In this document: positions 13,033 through 31,388 of the stretch, piece after piece | Position numbering within the stretch: the first letter of the stretch is position 1 | Layout: each line of letters begins with the position of its first letter | IMG/VR virus record: IMGVR_UViG_3300050021_000833 | Span: 1 to 38,313 of that record | Length of the DNA stretch: 38,313 nt | From: a virus | Strand: one strand, 5' to 3' | The notes under the pieces: model-generated | The model's database searches: none | What the model was told of the DNA's origin: nothing | The model's input: only the letters and a program-made list of their open reading frames with translations | Translations under genes and position numbers: made by a program

Positions 13033-13139
13033 CGGACCGCCGCAAGCGACCGTCCGTGCCGAAGAAGCCGAGCCACAAGACGAAGCGCCCGCGCCCGCCC
13101 AAGAGCGCCCACCACCGAGCTCCGAGGAGGAAGAAATGA
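13029..13139 (+). CDS. 36-residue highly basic peptide
   Basis: GTG 13029 overlaps the portal stop (GTGA) and the stop overlaps the next ATG (ATGA), so the frame fills the gap exactly. About half of the 36 residues are Lys or Arg, with Pro and His (starts VTDRRKRPSVPKK). It looks like a small nucleic-acid-binding peptide, or a coupling ORF that carries the strong GAGGAGGAAG ribosome site of the next gene. Confidence 0.45.
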   Translation: MTDRRKRPSVPKKPSHKTKRPRPPKSAHHRAPRRKK

Positions 13140-13504
13140 CCATCACCAAGGAAGAGGCGGCCGTCAAGCTGGGCTGCCCTCACCACGAGGTCAGCGGGAC
13201 AGTCGACACGGCCACCGGCGACGTCATCGCCATGGCCGACGGTTCCTCCTACATCCTCGTTCCGGAGGACAACCCGGACGCCGGCGGCAAGACGGGGCTG
13301 ATGTACCACCGCCTGCCCCACGAGGACTACAGCGGGACGTTCCCGGTCTACGAGCTCACGGCCGAAGAGGCCGCGGCGATTCGGGCCGAATCGGCCGAGG
13401 TCGAGCCCGAGGAAGCCACCACCGAGCTCGAGGAAGCGGATCCGGCCGAGGCGGAGACGGCCTCTCCCGTCCCGGTGCGGGCGAAGGCTGGGAAGTCCGC
13501 CTGA
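13136..13504 (+). CDS. Small acidic protein in head region
   Basis: The 122-residue product has an N-terminal half predicted as beta (GSSYILVPEDNPDAGGK, TGLMYHRLPHEDYSGTFPVY) and an acidic, Ala/Glu-rich tail. The ribosome site GAGGAGGAAG just before the ATG is among the strongest in the window, so the protein may be abundant. It could be a head accessory or scaffolding-assisting protein. I do not recognise the family. Its stop overlaps the next start (TGATG). Confidence 0.6.
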   Translation: MTITKEEAAVKLGCPHHEVSGTVDTATGDVIAMADGSSYILVPEDNPDAGGKTGLMYHRLPHEDYSGTFPVYELTAEEAAAIRAESAEVEPEEATTELEEADPAEAETASPVPVRAKAGKSA

Positions 13505-16074
13505 TGACCTGGCTCGACCGGTGCCCGACCTGCGGCGGCCCCGCTGAGTTCGTGGATGGCTGCGTCCGCAGCACCGTCGCCGGATCTGAGCCCACCCGTC
13601 TCGTCGAGGCCGCGGTGCCCGACAGCTTCAACGACATCCGCCAGCGGGTCGAGCAGGCGCTGACCACCTGGTATGCGACCAACGACGCGGCCGAGGACGC
13701 CAAGAACGGCAACGACCCCACCGACGACGATGACGACTTCTCCGTCGACGTCTGGGTCTGCGACCTCGGTACCGACTGGGTGGTGTGGGAGTCGTACGGC
13801 TCGATGGGACCCGGGCCCGGCCAGTGGAAGATGACCTACACCCTCGATGCCGCCGGCACGGTCACCCTCGACGGCACTCCCACCAAGGTCGAGACGCTCA
13901 CCCAGTACGTGCCGGCCAAGGAAGCCCGGGACCGGATCCACGGCCGGGTGCTCGAGTCGAAGGGCACCGATACCGCCGGCGGGCGCATCTTCGACGTCCA
14001 GATCATCGCCTTCGGCGACTCCCGCAACGGACGGCGGTACCCCCAGCAGGTGATGACCGAGGCGGTCTCCAAGTACGAAGGCGCCAAGGCCTACGACCAC
14101 CACCGCACCGACGAGGAGCTCACCACCTCGACGATCAACGGCCTGGTCGGTGCCTACCAGAACGTGACGGCGACCACCGAAGGCCTCCAGGGCGACCTGC
14201 ACCTGCTGCCCTCGGCCACACACGCCGCCGAAGCGCTCGACGCCAGCCTCGTGGCCCAGTCCCAGGGACTGCCCCCGATCGTCGGCATCAGCCACGACGT
14301 GATGGCGCTGTACAAGCCCATCACCGTCGGTGGCAAGAGGTTCATGGAGGCGACCGAGATCCATTCGGTCAACTCCGCAGACGTTGTCGCTGACCCCGCC
14401 GCCGGCGGCAAGGCGACACGAATGGTGGCCGGAGGTTCCGGCGCCGATCCCGAGGAGGGAAACACCATGACGCTCAAGGAGCTGCTCGCTTCGCTGCGCG
14501 AGGCCACTCCCGAAAAGAGGACCGAGCTGCTTCAGGAGCACAAGGCCACTGTCGAGGAGTTCGGTTTGGACGAGGCCGCCATCGGCCGCATCCTGGCCGA
14601 GGACCCGCCTTCCCCTGTGACGCCCCCGGTCACCGATCCGGCGACCCCGCCGGCGCCGGCCGTGCCTCCCGTCACCGACCCCGCTGTGGCCCCCGCCGCC
14701 GGCGAGCTCGTGCTGGCCAAGGAGTCCGCCCTCGGTCGGATGCTGATCCGGGACGCCGTCACCTCGGTCGGACTCGACGCCAAGTTCGTCGAGTCGATCG
14801 CCGCCCGTCTGCCCGATCGGTTCAGCGAGTCGGTGCTGACCACGCACGTCGCTGCCTACCAGGACATGCGAGTGGAGCTCGAGAAGGAGCTGATGGTCCG
14901 CTCGCCCGAGGGGATCATCCCCCACGTCGCGGTCACCGGTGAGGAGCGGACCAAGAAGATCTCCGCCCTCGACGCCATGTTCGACGACAGCCCGGCCCGG
15001 ATGGGCGAGGGCTATCGCAGCCTGAAGCAGGCGTTCCTCGACATCACGGGGCTCAATACCCGTGGCATGGGCAATGCCGAGCTCAGCCAGGCGATCATGC
15101 GGGAGTCGATCGGCTCCCAGCAGTTCGACTCCGCGGCCACCCGGTCGACGGAGTCCGCCCAGTCCGGCACGTGGAACCTGATCCTGGGTGACTCGATCAC
15201 CCGGCGCATGGTGGCCATGTACGAACAGCCCAACCTGCAGACCTGGCGGTCGGTCGCCTCGTCGATCGTGCCGATCGTGGACTTCAGGCTGCAGCGCCTC
15301 GACCGTCTCGGTGGGTACGGCGTGCTGCCGGGCGTCAACCAGGGCGCCCCGTACCAGCCGCTCACCACGCCGGGCAACGAGGAGGCCACCTACCAGATCT
15401 CCAAGCTGGGCGGCACGGAAGACCTGACCCTGGAGACCATCGCCAACGACGACCTCCGAGCCGTGCAGCGCATCCCGACCCTCTTGGGCCTGGCCGCCGC
15501 GCAGACGCTCTACCGGTTCGTCTGGGGCATGCTGATCAACAACGTCATCTACACCCCCGACACCACGGCGCTTTTCGCAGCCGGCCACAACAACACGGCC
15601 GCCACTGCGCTGAGCAACGGGAACCTGTCGGCGGCCCGGGCGGCGATGCGTCAGCAGACCGCCTACGGCGACGCGAAGGACATCCTGTCCATCCTGCCGA
15701 AGTTCCTGGTGGTCAACTCCAGCCTCGAGCAGCTCGCCTACGAGCTCACCGAGTCCGCCGTTGCCGTGCCCACCACGGCGCCCGACGGCGGCGCGGCCGG
15801 CCCGATCCCCAACCTGCACCAGGGGATGCAGGCCATCGTGGTCGACTTCTTCACCGCGACCTCGACGACCAACTGGTTCGTCGTGGCCGATCCCAACCTG
15901 ATCCCCACCATCGAGCTGGGCTTCTACAACGGACAGGTCGACCCCGAGCTGTTCGTGCAGAACGACCCGACCGTCGGTTCGGTGTTCACCGCGGACAAGA
16001 TCACCTACAAGATCCGCCACATCTACGGCGGCACGGTGGTCGACTTCCGCGGCCTCTACCGAGGCAACAGCTGA
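13504..16074 (+). CDS. Prohead protease-scaffold-major capsid fusion protein
   Basis: This 856-residue protein joins three functions. Residues 1-30 hold a CxxC zinc-ribbon-like start. Residues about 140-315 resemble a prohead protease, with candidate His in AYDHH (199-200), Ser in VGISHD (263) and the closing block VVADPAAGG. Residues about 322-450 are helical and Pro-rich, like a scaffold or delta domain. Residues about 520-856 match major capsid proteins of the Mu gpT-like type (GDSITRRMVAMYEQPNL; GGTEDLTLETIANDDL). Protease and capsid are usually separate genes or are fused as here in some phages. A strong internal start at 14467 probably makes the scaffold-capsid part alone. A terminator follows. 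Confidence 0.85.
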   Translation: MTWLDRCPTCGGPAEFVDGCVRSTVAGSEPTRLVEAAVPDSFNDIRQRVEQALTTWYATNDAAEDAKNGNDPTDDDDDFSVDVWVCDLGTDWVVWESYGSMGPGPGQWKMTYTLDAAGTVTLDGTPTKVETLTQYVPAKEARDRIHGRVLESKGTDTAGGRIFDVQIIAFGDSRNGRRYPQQVMTEAVSKYEGAKAYDHHRTDEELTTSTINGLVGAYQNVTATTEGLQGDLHLLPSATHAAEALDASLVAQSQGLPPIVGISHDVMALYKPITVGGKRFMEATEIHSVNSADVVADPAAGGKATRMVAGGSGADPEEGNTMTLKELLASLREATPEKRTELLQEHKATVEEFGLDEAAIGRILAEDPPSPVTPPVTDPATPPAPAVPPVTDPAVAPAAGELVLAKESALGRMLIRDAVTSVGLDAKFVESIAARLPDRFSESVLTTHVAAYQDMRVELEKELMVRSPEGIIPHVAVTGEERTKKISALDAMFDDSPARMGEGYRSLKQAFLDITGLNTRGMGNAELSQAIMRESIGSQQFDSAATRSTESAQSGTWNLILGDSITRRMVAMYEQPNLQTWRSVASSIVPIVDFRLQRLDRLGGYGVLPGVNQGAPYQPLTTPGNEEATYQISKLGGTEDLTLETIANDDLRAVQRIPTLLGLAAAQTLYRFVWGMLINNVIYTPDTTALFAAGHNNTAATALSNGNLSAARAAMRQQTAYGDAKDILSILPKFLVVNSSLEQLAYELTESAVAVPTTAPDGGAAGPIPNLHQGMQAIVVDFFTATSTTNWFVVADPNLIPTIELGFYNGQVDPELFVQNDPTVGSVFTADKITYKIRHIYGGTVVDFRGLYRGNS
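14452..16074 (+). other. Internal in-frame start for scaffold-capsid product (ATG 14467)
   Basis: GAGGAGGGA (14452-14460) lies 6 nt before an ATG at 14467 that is in frame with the fused gene. Initiation here gives a 535-residue protein that starts exactly after the protease domain, with a scaffold-like helix (MTLKELLASLREATPEKR) followed by the capsid fold. This is the arrangement expected if capsid must greatly outnumber protease, as with nested lambda Nu3 inside C. Confidence 0.6.
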
Positions 16075-16157: not shown

Positions 16158-16556
16158 ATGCCCGGATTCATCGATCTACCCAACGACATCGTCGAGAACG
16201 TCAGCATCCCAGCGTTCGCCACCGCCGGTGAGACCCCGGTCTACCGGGCGCAGGCCAACGGCGTCGTGGTTGCCGCGTTCTGGGTGCCGTCGGCCGCGGT
16301 CAGCCACAACGCGACCAACTACTGCACCCTGGCCCTGCGCAACCGCACCACGGGAGCAGGAACGGCGCTGCCGGCCACCCGGTCGTACGCGGCCACCGAC
16401 TCCGTGGCGTTCGTGGCCGAGGCCATGACGCTCGACGCCACGCTGGCCAACACCCAGTTCGTCGCCGGCGACGTGCTGACGGCGCAGGTGACCGATGCGG
16501 GCGCCGGCCTCGCTCTGCCCGCCGGGTACCTGGACCTCCACATTCGGTGGCGCTGA
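16158..16556 (+). CDS. Probable head decoration or small virion protein
   Basis: The 132-residue protein is Ala/Thr/Val-rich and predicted all-beta, with no Lys-rich or membrane segment: typical of a virion surface protein. AAGGAGGGC gives a strong ribosome site about 4 nt before ATG 16158. Position right after the capsid gene suggests capsid decoration. The family is not recognised, and a head fibre is an alternative. Confidence 0.55.
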   Translation: MPGFIDLPNDIVENVSIPAFATAGETPVYRAQANGVVVAAFWVPSAAVSHNATNYCTLALRNRTTGAGTALPATRSYAATDSVAFVAEAMTLDATLANTQFVAGDVLTAQVTDAGAGLALPAGYLDLHIRWR

Positions 16557-28630: not shown

Positions 28631-29016
28631 ACGTCGCCCTCATCGCCGGCCTCGCCATGGTCGGCCAGGACATCCTCGGCGTCTGCATGGTCCAGGCCGA
28701 GAACCGGGGCCACGGCTGGCTCACGGGAGTACTCGATGCGGGCATGTTCCTCTTTGCCCTGGTCACCTACCACTACAGCCTCAACACCCTCAACGGCCAT
28801 TCGACCCGCGAGCGTGTATTGGTCCTCGTCCTGGTAACGATCGCCAACGTGGTCGGGTCGAAGAGCGGACAGGTGATCGGCGACCGGTTCATCAAGCCGA
28901 AGCGTGACGCGCTCTGGGGGCTGCTGATCACCAAGGGCCTCGTCACCGAGGCCGACTGGGTGGCGACCCAGCACCCGAAGAACCGCCATATCCGCCGGCT
29001 CAAGGAGGCAGCGTGA
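28627..29016 (+). CDS. Holin-like membrane protein
   Basis: The 129-residue protein has at least three hydrophobic segments (about residues 2-18, 32-52 and 63-80) and a charged C-terminus (KNRHIRRLKEA). It lies in the lysis cassette straight after the endolysin and a second membrane protein. Size, topology and position fit a holin. Starts at GTG 28627, overlapping the previous stop. Confidence 0.6.
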   Translation: MNVALIAGLAMVGQDILGVCMVQAENRGHGWLTGVLDAGMFLFALVTYHYSLNTLNGHSTRERVLVLVLVTIANVVGSKSGQVIGDRFIKPKRDALWGLLITKGLVTEADWVATQHPKNRHIRRLKEAA

Positions 29017-29870
29017 ACACCCTGATCGCCCTCTGGGCAGTTCCCGTCTTCCTCTGGCATCGGATCCACGACGATCTCTGGCCCCTCGATCGATCCTTCG
29101 TCGGGCCCAACATCTTCGCGAACCTGATCTGGATTCCCATTGCCGGCCTCGTCGCCTACATCCTCTGGCCGAGGTTTCGCACGAAGCTCAACGCCCTCCT
29201 GGCGAAGGCGCTCCACACCCATCACCTTCTCCACGTGCAACCGCACCACGACGCCGTCACCGACGAGCTCGCCCGATTGGGCAATCTCGTCGAATCCTGG
29301 CTCCGCCCTGCAGTTCATCCGATCTCACCACCACCACCAACCAATCAACCCACAACGAAGGAGCCCTACATGGGAACGCTGTCCGAACTCGCCGCCGACA
29401 TCGAGAAGCGGTTCGTCCATCACCCGCCCATCAATGACCTGGTGGCCGAGGCCCACACCAAGGTCCGTTCGATCCTCGAGACGGCCGCCAAGGACCTCCT
29501 CGAGGTCGCCGGCACGGTGGCACCACAGGCCCGCGAGGTCTCGCTGGGGCTCACCAAGCTGGAAGAGGCCATGATGTGGTTCAACGCCCACATCGCCCGC
29601 AACCAGACGGTCGCACCGATTCCGACCGAATCAACGCCGGCCTCGCCCGTCATCGACCCGGTGCAAGCGCCGGCCCCCGATCCGACACCCGTCACGGAGC
29701 CGACTGCGTGGCCCGTGGCCGACCCGACGCCGGCGGCCGATCCCGTCCCGGCCCCCGTCGACCCCACTCCGGTCGCTCCCGTCGATCCGGTTGCACCGCC
29801 GGTTCCCGAAGCAGACGCTCCGCCCGCGGCCACCTCGCCGGCCGACGTCGCCGCTCCGCCCACGGCCTGA
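29013..29870 (+). CDS. Holin-like membrane segment fused in frame to an Acb2-like module
   Basis: The 285-codon frame joins two different parts. Residues 1-118 have a hydrophobic N-terminus and a membrane segment (about 35-53, ANLIWIPIAGLVAYILWPRF), then a His-rich helix, like small actinophage holin-type proteins. Residues 120-197 match Acb2 (DUF7681) proteins, which bind cyclic nucleotides and block CBASS defence. Residues 200-285 are Pro/Ala/Asp repeats. A strong internal start at 29370 may make the Acb2-like part separately. GTG 29013 overlaps the previous stop. Confidence 0.7.
   Translation: MNTLIALWAVPVFLWHRIHDDLWPLDRSFVGPNIFANLIWIPIAGLVAYILWPRFRTKLNALLAKALHTHHLLHVQPHHDAVTDELARLGNLVESWLRPAVHPISPPPPTNQPTTKEPYMGTLSELAADIEKRFVHHPPINDLVAEAHTKVRSILETAAKDLLEVAGTVAPQAREVSLGLTKLEEAMMWFNAHIARNQTVAPIPTESTPASPVIDPVQAPAPDPTPVTEPTAWPVADPTPAADPVPAPVDPTPVAPVDPVAPPVPEADAPPAATSPADVAAPPTA
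29357..29870 (+). other. Acb2-like anti-CBASS sponge from internal ATG 29370
   Basis: AAGGAG (29358-29363) lies 6 nt before in-frame ATG 29370. The 166-residue product begins MGTLSELAADIEKRFVHHPP. It contains the Acb2-family signature REVSLGLTKLEEAMMWFNAH followed by IARN (residues 55-78). Acb2 proteins are small helical hexamers that soak up cyclic di- and trinucleotides and so stop CBASS effectors. In the usual F-x-Y-H-x-P block the tyrosine is His here (H17), which may alter ligand choice. A Pro-rich tail of about 85 residues, not part of known Acb2, follows. Confidence 0.7.
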
Positions 29871-29871
29871 C

Positions 29872-30369
29872 ATGACACCGCTCACCATCCCCCTCGAGGC
29901 GGCGACCGAGGGCGACCTCGTGTTCTTCGACTCGTCGGGGAAGGTGAGCTGGGTCATCAAGCTCGCTCAGCGCATCAAGTGGCACGGCGACAAGAACCAC
30001 GTCGCCTGGCTGGACCACCAGGACGAGCACGGCCAGTGGTTCATCGGCCAGGCCGAAGGCAGCGGGGTCACGATCGACAAGCCCCTCGTCCTCGGTCCGA
30101 ACGACGTGATCGTACGACCGCCGGCCTCGGTCGGTCGCGGGCGGATGCTCCAGTTCCTCCGGGCACAGGCGAGCTCGAAGTACGGGTTCCTGACCGACGT
30201 CTCCATCCTCATCACCATGCTGTCGCCGGGCTTCGTCAACGTGATGCGTGGCGGCACCTGGATCTGCAGCGCCGTGGTGGCCGAGGGCCTCCGCTTCGGC
30301 GGCTGGCTGCACAACTGGCCCGATATCTACCAAGTCGCACCCGACCCCCTTTGGGAGGCACTGTCATGA
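29872..30369 (+). CDS. Permuted papain-fold (NlpC/P60-YiiX-type) cysteine hydrolase
   Basis: The 165-residue protein has GDLVFFDS (residues 14-21), the catalytic His in KNHVAWL (H43) and the nucleophile in TWICSAVVAEGLR (C132). His before Cys is the circularly permuted order of YiiX/LRAT-type enzymes. Members cut amide or ester bonds in peptidoglycan, lipids or proteins. Its place next to the lysis genes suggests a second cell-wall or envelope hydrolase. No signal peptide is seen, so it would need holin pores or act in the cytoplasm. Confidence 0.7.
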   Translation: MTPLTIPLEAATEGDLVFFDSSGKVSWVIKLAQRIKWHGDKNHVAWLDHQDEHGQWFIGQAEGSGVTIDKPLVLGPNDVIVRPPASVGRGRMLQFLRAQASSKYGFLTDVSILITMLSPGFVNVMRGGTWICSAVVAEGLRFGGWLHNWPDIYQVAPDPLWEALS

Positions 30370-31388
30370 CCAGAGCCCGCCGCAACCTCATCGCCGCTGC
30401 AGTGGTCACCGTGGTGGCGATGGCCAGTCTCGTCGTGGGGACCCGGTCCGAAGGGCCGATCAGTTGTCACCCCGACCCGGCCGCTGCCATCGCTGCTACC
30501 CCGGCCGGTGGCAAATGGCAGGGGTCGGGGTGCTACACCACCAACGGAATCACGGTCACCAAGCCGATCACGATCTCCGGGGGCACGTTCAACGATCCGC
30601 TGACGGCCGTTCCGAAGGGCCAACGCATCCTCCCGCCGATCATCGACGTGAAGGACACCCACGGGGTCACGATCAAGAACGTCGTCCTCAAAGGGTCAGA
30701 TCCGTCCGGTTCGTTCAGCCAGAAGACAATCGCCCTGGTCAACAACGCCGGGATCGAGGTGCAGTCCTCCGACAGCGTGACCCTGACCAACGTCACCACC
30801 TCGCACACCTACGGTGACGGCCTCGAGCTCTGGACCGACTATCCGACCAGCGGCTTGCCCGTGACCAACCTCACGGTCAACGGCTACAACGTCCTCTCTT
30901 CTGGCCGATTCGCGATCAGTCCGTCCTTCGTCAAGCACGCCACGTTCAACGACGTCCATGCCAAGGCGTTGGACTTCGAGTCCGACACCGCGCACACCGG
31001 CAGCGGGTACGTGACGGTGACCAACTCCACGGTGTCCAAACTGATCTCCATCCCCGAGTATCTGACCGGCCCGATCACCTTCGATCACGTGACCGGATCC
31101 GCGCAGGTCTACTTCATGACCACGGGCAACACCTGGCCGGTCACCATCAGCGACTCGACCCTCGCCCTCCCGGCCACAGATCCGGGCTTCCCTCATGCTG
31201 CGATCTACGACAGCGGGGGAGTGCTGACGCTCTCGCACGATGTCTTCACCCGCCAGCCTTCGCCCAAGCCGCCGACCGGGCGGGGTTGGTCCGCCACCAA
31301 CGGCGCTCGCCTGACCTTCATCGGTTCCGTCGTGCCCGGCCCATCCGGCGGCCACGATCCCACGTCCACCGTCACCGTCATCCCCTAA
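30366..31388 (+). CDS. Exported right-handed beta-helix protein
   Basis: The 340-residue protein begins with a signal-type sequence: basic MTRARRNL, then a hydrophobic stretch to about residue 25 (IAAAVVTVVAMASLVVG). The rest shows the repeating short strands of a parallel beta-helix (IDVKDTHGVTIKNVVLKGSD; VTLTNVTTSHTYGDGLELWT). Such folds bind or cut polysaccharides, as in tailspikes and pectate lyases. An N-terminal signal is odd for a virion part, so secretion or membrane anchoring during infection or lysogeny is possible. It overlaps the previous stop (ATGA). Confidence 0.65.
   Translation: MTRARRNLIAAAVVTVVAMASLVVGTRSEGPISCHPDPAAAIAATPAGGKWQGSGCYTTNGITVTKPITISGGTFNDPLTAVPKGQRILPPIIDVKDTHGVTIKNVVLKGSDPSGSFSQKTIALVNNAGIEVQSSDSVTLTNVTTSHTYGDGLELWTDYPTSGLPVTNLTVNGYNVLSSGRFAISPSFVKHATFNDVHAKALDFESDTAHTGSGYVTVTNSTVSKLISIPEYLTGPITFDHVTGSAQVYFMTTGNTWPVTISDSTLALPATDPGFPHAAIYDSGGVLTLSHDVFTRQPSPKPPTGRGWSATNGARLTFIGSVVPGPSGGHDPTSTVTVIP

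Follow-up and report, generated by a model that had tools for sequence, protein, structure and literature searches.

Gifsy-2 reportedly has a tripartite capsid gene that combines a protease, a presumed scaffold and an HK97-like capsid protein. In lambda and Mu, the scaffold is made from an in-frame start nested within the protease gene (Nu3 within C and Z within I, respectively), and the capsid protein is encoded separately. In herpesviruses, the protease/scaffold gene UL26 has a nested scaffold product, UL26.5, translated from a transcript of its own, and the capsid gene is distinct. Protease–capsid fusions are also known in Rhodobacter RcC phages (PMC8601537) and in Paracoccus prophages (PMC6536676), and for PaMx73, a Mu-like phage of P. 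aeruginosa, a nested scaffold start in the protease gene has been proposed (PMC4378225). The locus described here joins these two schemes, the protease–capsid fusion and the nested scaffold start within a protease gene. Neither tripartite capsid genes, as in Gifsy-2, nor nested scaffold starts, as in lambda and Mu, are new, which makes the idea less original than the first-pass annotation of this DNA implied. A literature search, outside which the Gifsy-2 paper of 2010 lay, returned no paper on a fused gene with a capsid start nested in it, and a marine Pseudoalteromonas proteomics paper does not mention protease, prohead or U35.

The window, by which we mean the whole stretch of DNA that was analysed, is a virus record of 38,313 bases. 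Positions 13504–16074 on the plus strand form one uninterrupted ORF of 856 amino acids. Its main ATG overlaps the stop codon of the preceding ORF as TGATG. The features of the gene and the gene that follows are:

13504–16074, plus strand: fusion ORF, comprising an N-terminal domain, the protease, a scaffold-like part and a capsid domain of HK97 fold
13504–13908, plus strand: N-terminal domain, residues 1–135, with a CPTC motif at its start; precedes the protease
13987–14430, plus strand: protease domain, about residues 162–309, predicted to fold like T4 gp21 and herpesvirus assemblin
14434–14466, plus strand: linker, residues 311–321, of low confidence in the AlphaFold model; separates protease from scaffold and holds the internal Shine-Dalgarno sequence
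14453–14458, plus strand: internal Shine-Dalgarno sequence (SD) AGGAGG in the protease–scaffold linker, duplex energy -11.8 kcal/mol
14467–15153, plus strand: presumed scaffold/delta region, about residues 322–550, mostly helical
14467–16074, plus strand: proposed nested product of 535 amino acids from the SD/ATG, scaffold plus capsid, N-terminus MTLKELL
15154–16062, plus strand: major capsid domain, PF25209, residues 551–853, HK97 fold, relative of Mu gpT
16158–16556, plus strand: next gene, 132 amino acids, strong SD (-10.4), no family match

The position of the gene at 16158–16556 suggests a decoration protein. The preceding ORF, at 13136–13504 (plus strand, 122 amino acids), has a strong SD (-11.3) and no family match. 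An antisense ORF of 890 amino acids at 13348–16020 (minus strand) spans the fusion gene and is in all likelihood spurious, a result of high GC content. Elsewhere in the window, the 285-amino-acid product of 29013–29870 (plus strand) contains an Acb2/Tad1 hairpin domain (PF24729, E = 9.5e-12, residues 146–196), a domain of phage proteins that act by sequestering signal nucleotides of host immunity.

AlphaFold, run with 47 aligned sequences, divides the protein into the N-terminal domain, the protease, the linker, a helical region and the capsid domain. The N-terminal domain is partly common to Microcystis phage Mae-JY22. At the C-terminal end, the Pfam family PF25209 matches with E = 1.9e-43 and 150 bits against a gathering cut-off of 27, and Foldseek matches the capsid part to HK97-fold capsids, including HK97 itself (1ohg, E = 3.4e-8). 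The family profile aligns to that of Mu gpT with 95.6% probability and E = 1.2e-8 in hhalign, so that the label gpT-like, given to the capsid in the first-pass annotation, is right. The fusion of this capsid with a protease in one frame of 856 residues, also claimed there, is borne out by the ORF itself, by PF25209 and by the protease matches described below. Protease, scaffold-like region and capsid are thereby found in one ORF, the middle part being presumed to act as scaffold from its position and predicted helical content only. PHROG 29592 ('unknown function') matches residues 139–853 (13918–16062, plus strand) and could be annotated, as it spans the protease–capsid fusion.

By sequence, the window protein matches PHROG 15531 'head maturation protease' weakly (E = 3.5e-4). 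Of the 47 aligned proteins, among them that of the window, 42 hit the same PHROG, with a best E of 5.6e-16. Modelled alone, the protease domain reaches a pLDDT of 89 and is matched to T4 gp21 by Foldseek (5jbl, E = 3.7e-4) and by VIA-align (Z 10.8, rmsd 2.8 over 128 residues). Herpesvirus proteases rank after T4 gp21, with Z up to 8.9 for the VZV protease (rmsd 2.8 over 113 residues). By the fold shared with this model, the protease is predicted to be of the T4 gp21/herpesvirus assemblin type. It does not qualify as ClpP-like, the structural matches going to T4 gp21 and the herpesvirus proteases, and comparison of the family profile with the Mu gpI profile gave no match. Asp293 (codon 14380–14382) is kept in all 47 aligned proteins. 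As to the candidate catalytic residues, Ser263 (codon 14290–14292) is kept in 46, and the column of His200 holds His in just 23. The domain limits of the AlphaFold model, the fold matches and the matches to PHROG 15531 together place Met322 at the border between protease and scaffold. In the model, the protease strands run until residue 309 and the first scaffold helix begins at residue 324.

At this border, GAGGAGGGA is found at 14452–14460, and ATG 14467, in frame as codon 322, lies 8 nt past the last G of AGGAGG. The first-pass annotation had put an SD and an in-frame ATG exactly at the border, and they are indeed there, sited in the linker before the first scaffold helix. The SD at ATG 14467 is the strongest among the 106 internal in-frame ATGs of 16 window ORFs, and none of these 16 ORFs has an SD as strong at its own start. 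The main start at 13504 combines a weak SD (-4.8) with strong local structure (-17.5), compared with a structure of -10.9 at the nested start, a value that is only moderately weak (weaker than at 84% of ORF positions). The internal ATG that ranks second in the window by SD strength, at 30366, was set aside, being probably a gene's own start. It overlaps the stop of the ORF at 29791–30369 as ATGA and has an SD of -10.2, and 30366–31388 (plus strand) likely represents the true extent of the gene listed from 29979. The longer ORF from 29979 has a weak beta-helix match.

A search of IMG/VR with the single window protein gave no match, nor did a nucleotide search of the border sequence among phages; an alignment-based search gave the homologues. 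We collected 160 homologous loci, plus others from phage records, and grouped 148 complete ORFs at an identity limit of about 50%, which gave 53 clusters of approximate independence. Cultured relatives with a fused gene are Stenotrophomonas S1, Pseudomonas MD8 and Rhodobacter RcKemmy, among others. The border test covers the 45 clusters with the protease type of the window. As anchor we used the last conserved protease motif, ADPxAG, chosen independently of the Met, and scored the 70 amino acids beyond it for an in-frame ATG with an SD of at most -5.5 kcal/mol. The first-pass annotation had named homologues that keep the fusion and lack the internal SD/ATG as evidence against its proposal. We find the opposite, with such a site in 35 of 45 clusters compared with 73 of 337 (about 22%) other in-frame windows (p = 1.7e-15). 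In the other frames of the same border stretch, a site occurs in 6/45 clusters (+1) and 1/45 (+2). At a stricter cut-off (SD of at most -7), 20 of 45 clusters have a border site, against 21 of the 337 other windows. The mean SD is -5.96 at the first ATG past the anchor and -2.94 over 502 in-frame ATGs elsewhere (p = 4.9e-9). Local folding (-30 to +20) is also weaker at border ATGs (-8.8) than at other ATGs with an SD (-15.0, p = 2.4e-10) or in the flanking windows (-14.1, p = 1.6e-8); a lower GC content of the linker (54% vs 63%) adds to this openness. The cut-off of -5.5 is missed by 26 of 132 members, most of which have a weaker ATG with SD (-4 to -5) in the same stretch, and two, L146 and L066, have no ATG with SD at all in the border stretch.

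Close relatives retain the site in detail. L086, the nearest relative retrieved (84% identity across the matched region, in an Acidimicrobiaceae MAG), and L007 keep a strong SD and ATG at the border, and L086 preserves GAGGAGGGA and ACCATGACG, with a different spacer between them. In L009, L010, L011 and L087, the border site has GTG, and the SD is kept (-7.4 to -11.3), which indicates that the retained feature is a start codon and not the Met. The border SD furthermore sits in either of two codon phases, 22 times in one and 10 times in the other, and is for this reason not one fixed amino-acid motif. These observations speak against a reading in which a conserved Glu-rich stretch with its Met serves the protein, as a protease cleavage site or linker, and is not an RNA signal. 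EE, KE or QE ahead of the Met is common among border sequences, as this reading would have it, but the two SD phases yield different residues, Met gives way to Val with the SD kept, and the openness of the mRNA is left unexplained. We consider it hardly credible. Border position, mRNA openness, the two SD phases and GTG with a kept SD instead argue for a translation start.

The same data bear on the simplest alternative, that the full-length fusion alone is made, every capsid subunit bringing a protease that cleaves itself, and that the SD/ATG is a by-product of the Glu-rich linker. HK97-type delta domains show that cleavage can remove N-terminal parts of a capsid protein (PMC3185693), and the SD of the main start is strong as well in the relatives L005, L167, L173 and L174. 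A synonymous-codon shuffle, moreover, detected no more SD strength than the protein sequence itself dictates (Fisher p = 0.82 over 53 clusters; p = 0.78 for the window). This shuffle is uninformative because EE/KE/GE residues before the Met encode an SD almost automatically, and its null result means that selection is visible in residues and position, not in codon choice. A full-length product alone is nevertheless unlikely, given that in-frame ATGs with SD are concentrated at the border and not in other frames or windows, that the SD persists where GTG replaces ATG, and that weak mRNA structure is found exactly at the border.

A third possibility is that the border start is a relic of gene fusion, derived from the start of an ancestral scaffold gene and little used now. 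Mu has a nested scaffold start, and Methanoculleus virus Blf4 a candidate for one, inside a gene for protease and scaffold while the capsid is encoded apart, so that the signal may predate the capsid fusion. A relic would be expected to decay, yet dozens of clusters that share less than 50% identity still carry the signal, and the SD in the window beats all 16 scored ORF starts. We therefore regard a little-used relic as very improbable, and conclude that the nested start at the border is probably a real and conserved translation start.

The gene would then supply two co-terminal proteins from one mRNA region. Start 13504, with its weak SD, structured surroundings and a probable coupling, via TGATG, to termination of the upstream ORF, would give a low amount of the 856-amino-acid protease–scaffold–capsid fusion. 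Start 14467, with its strong SD in a more open region, would give a high amount of the scaffold–capsid protein of 535 amino acids and about 56 kDa. The two proteins are expected to co-assemble through their common scaffold and capsid parts, which would limit the number of proteases inside the prohead, and the protease may then cut away itself and the scaffold. That one gene provides few protease-bearing fusions and many scaffold–capsid copies is, in our judgement, likely; the sequence itself shows the ORF, its domains and the SD/ATG conserved at the border, and start use, ratio, co-assembly and cleavage are inferred. The contrast of a weak, structured main start with a strong, open nested start fits this reading for the window, but a strong SD at the main start of some relatives means that the low-to-high ratio is not general. 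The proposal offers a simple and testable answer to the question of how phages with a fused gene avoid a protease on each capsid subunit.

The overall fusion of the window is also described by the NCBIfam families NF045541 'prohead protease/major capsid protein fusion protein' and NF045540 (ClpP-like). Neither matches the protease part of the window, NF045541 covering residues 381–853 with 189 bits and NF045540 residues 520–853 with 142 bits, far below the curated cut-offs of 525 and 475. Gifsy-2 resembles the window in having protease, presumed scaffold and HK97-like capsid in one gene. As the Gifsy-2 protease is ClpP-like and the protease model of the window matches T4 gp21 and the herpesvirus proteases, the two are kin by layout and not by protease type. 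After its protease, Gifsy-2 contains a candidate internal SD/ATG, gttGAGGAGtttgagcatATG, at codon 250 of the stop-to-stop frame (SD -7.8). It seems reasonably probable to us that a conserved nested scaffold–capsid start is common to tripartite capsid genes as a class, whose protease domains show at least two folds and whose hosts range across Actinobacteria, Chloroflexi, Proteobacteria and cyanobacteria. The annotated fusion would then be the minor product, and the major product would be unannotated. Many annotated 'protease–capsid fusion' genes would in this case miss their main product.

Like lambda and Mu, the window has an SD and an in-frame start codon where protease and scaffold meet, in Mu at a similar position. 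The known nested starts of Mu Z (SD -7.4) and lambda Nu3 (SD -6.4) score similarly to the border sites. In the archaeal virus Blf4 (L170 1943), whose capsid gene is separate, a candidate nested scaffold start has an SD of -7.4. In contrast to the window, lambda has an S49-type protease and separate genes for decoration (D) and capsid (E), and the protease of Mu has no detectable profile relation to that of the window. In Mu, capsid protein T has a separate gene and the nested product is scaffold only, whereas the nested product predicted here includes the capsid domain, which would extend the trick of lambda Nu3 and Mu Z to the capsid itself. The herpesvirus protease/scaffold gene differs in its separate transcript for the nested product and in its separate capsid gene. 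It parallels the window in combining a nested scaffold product with a protease of matching fold.
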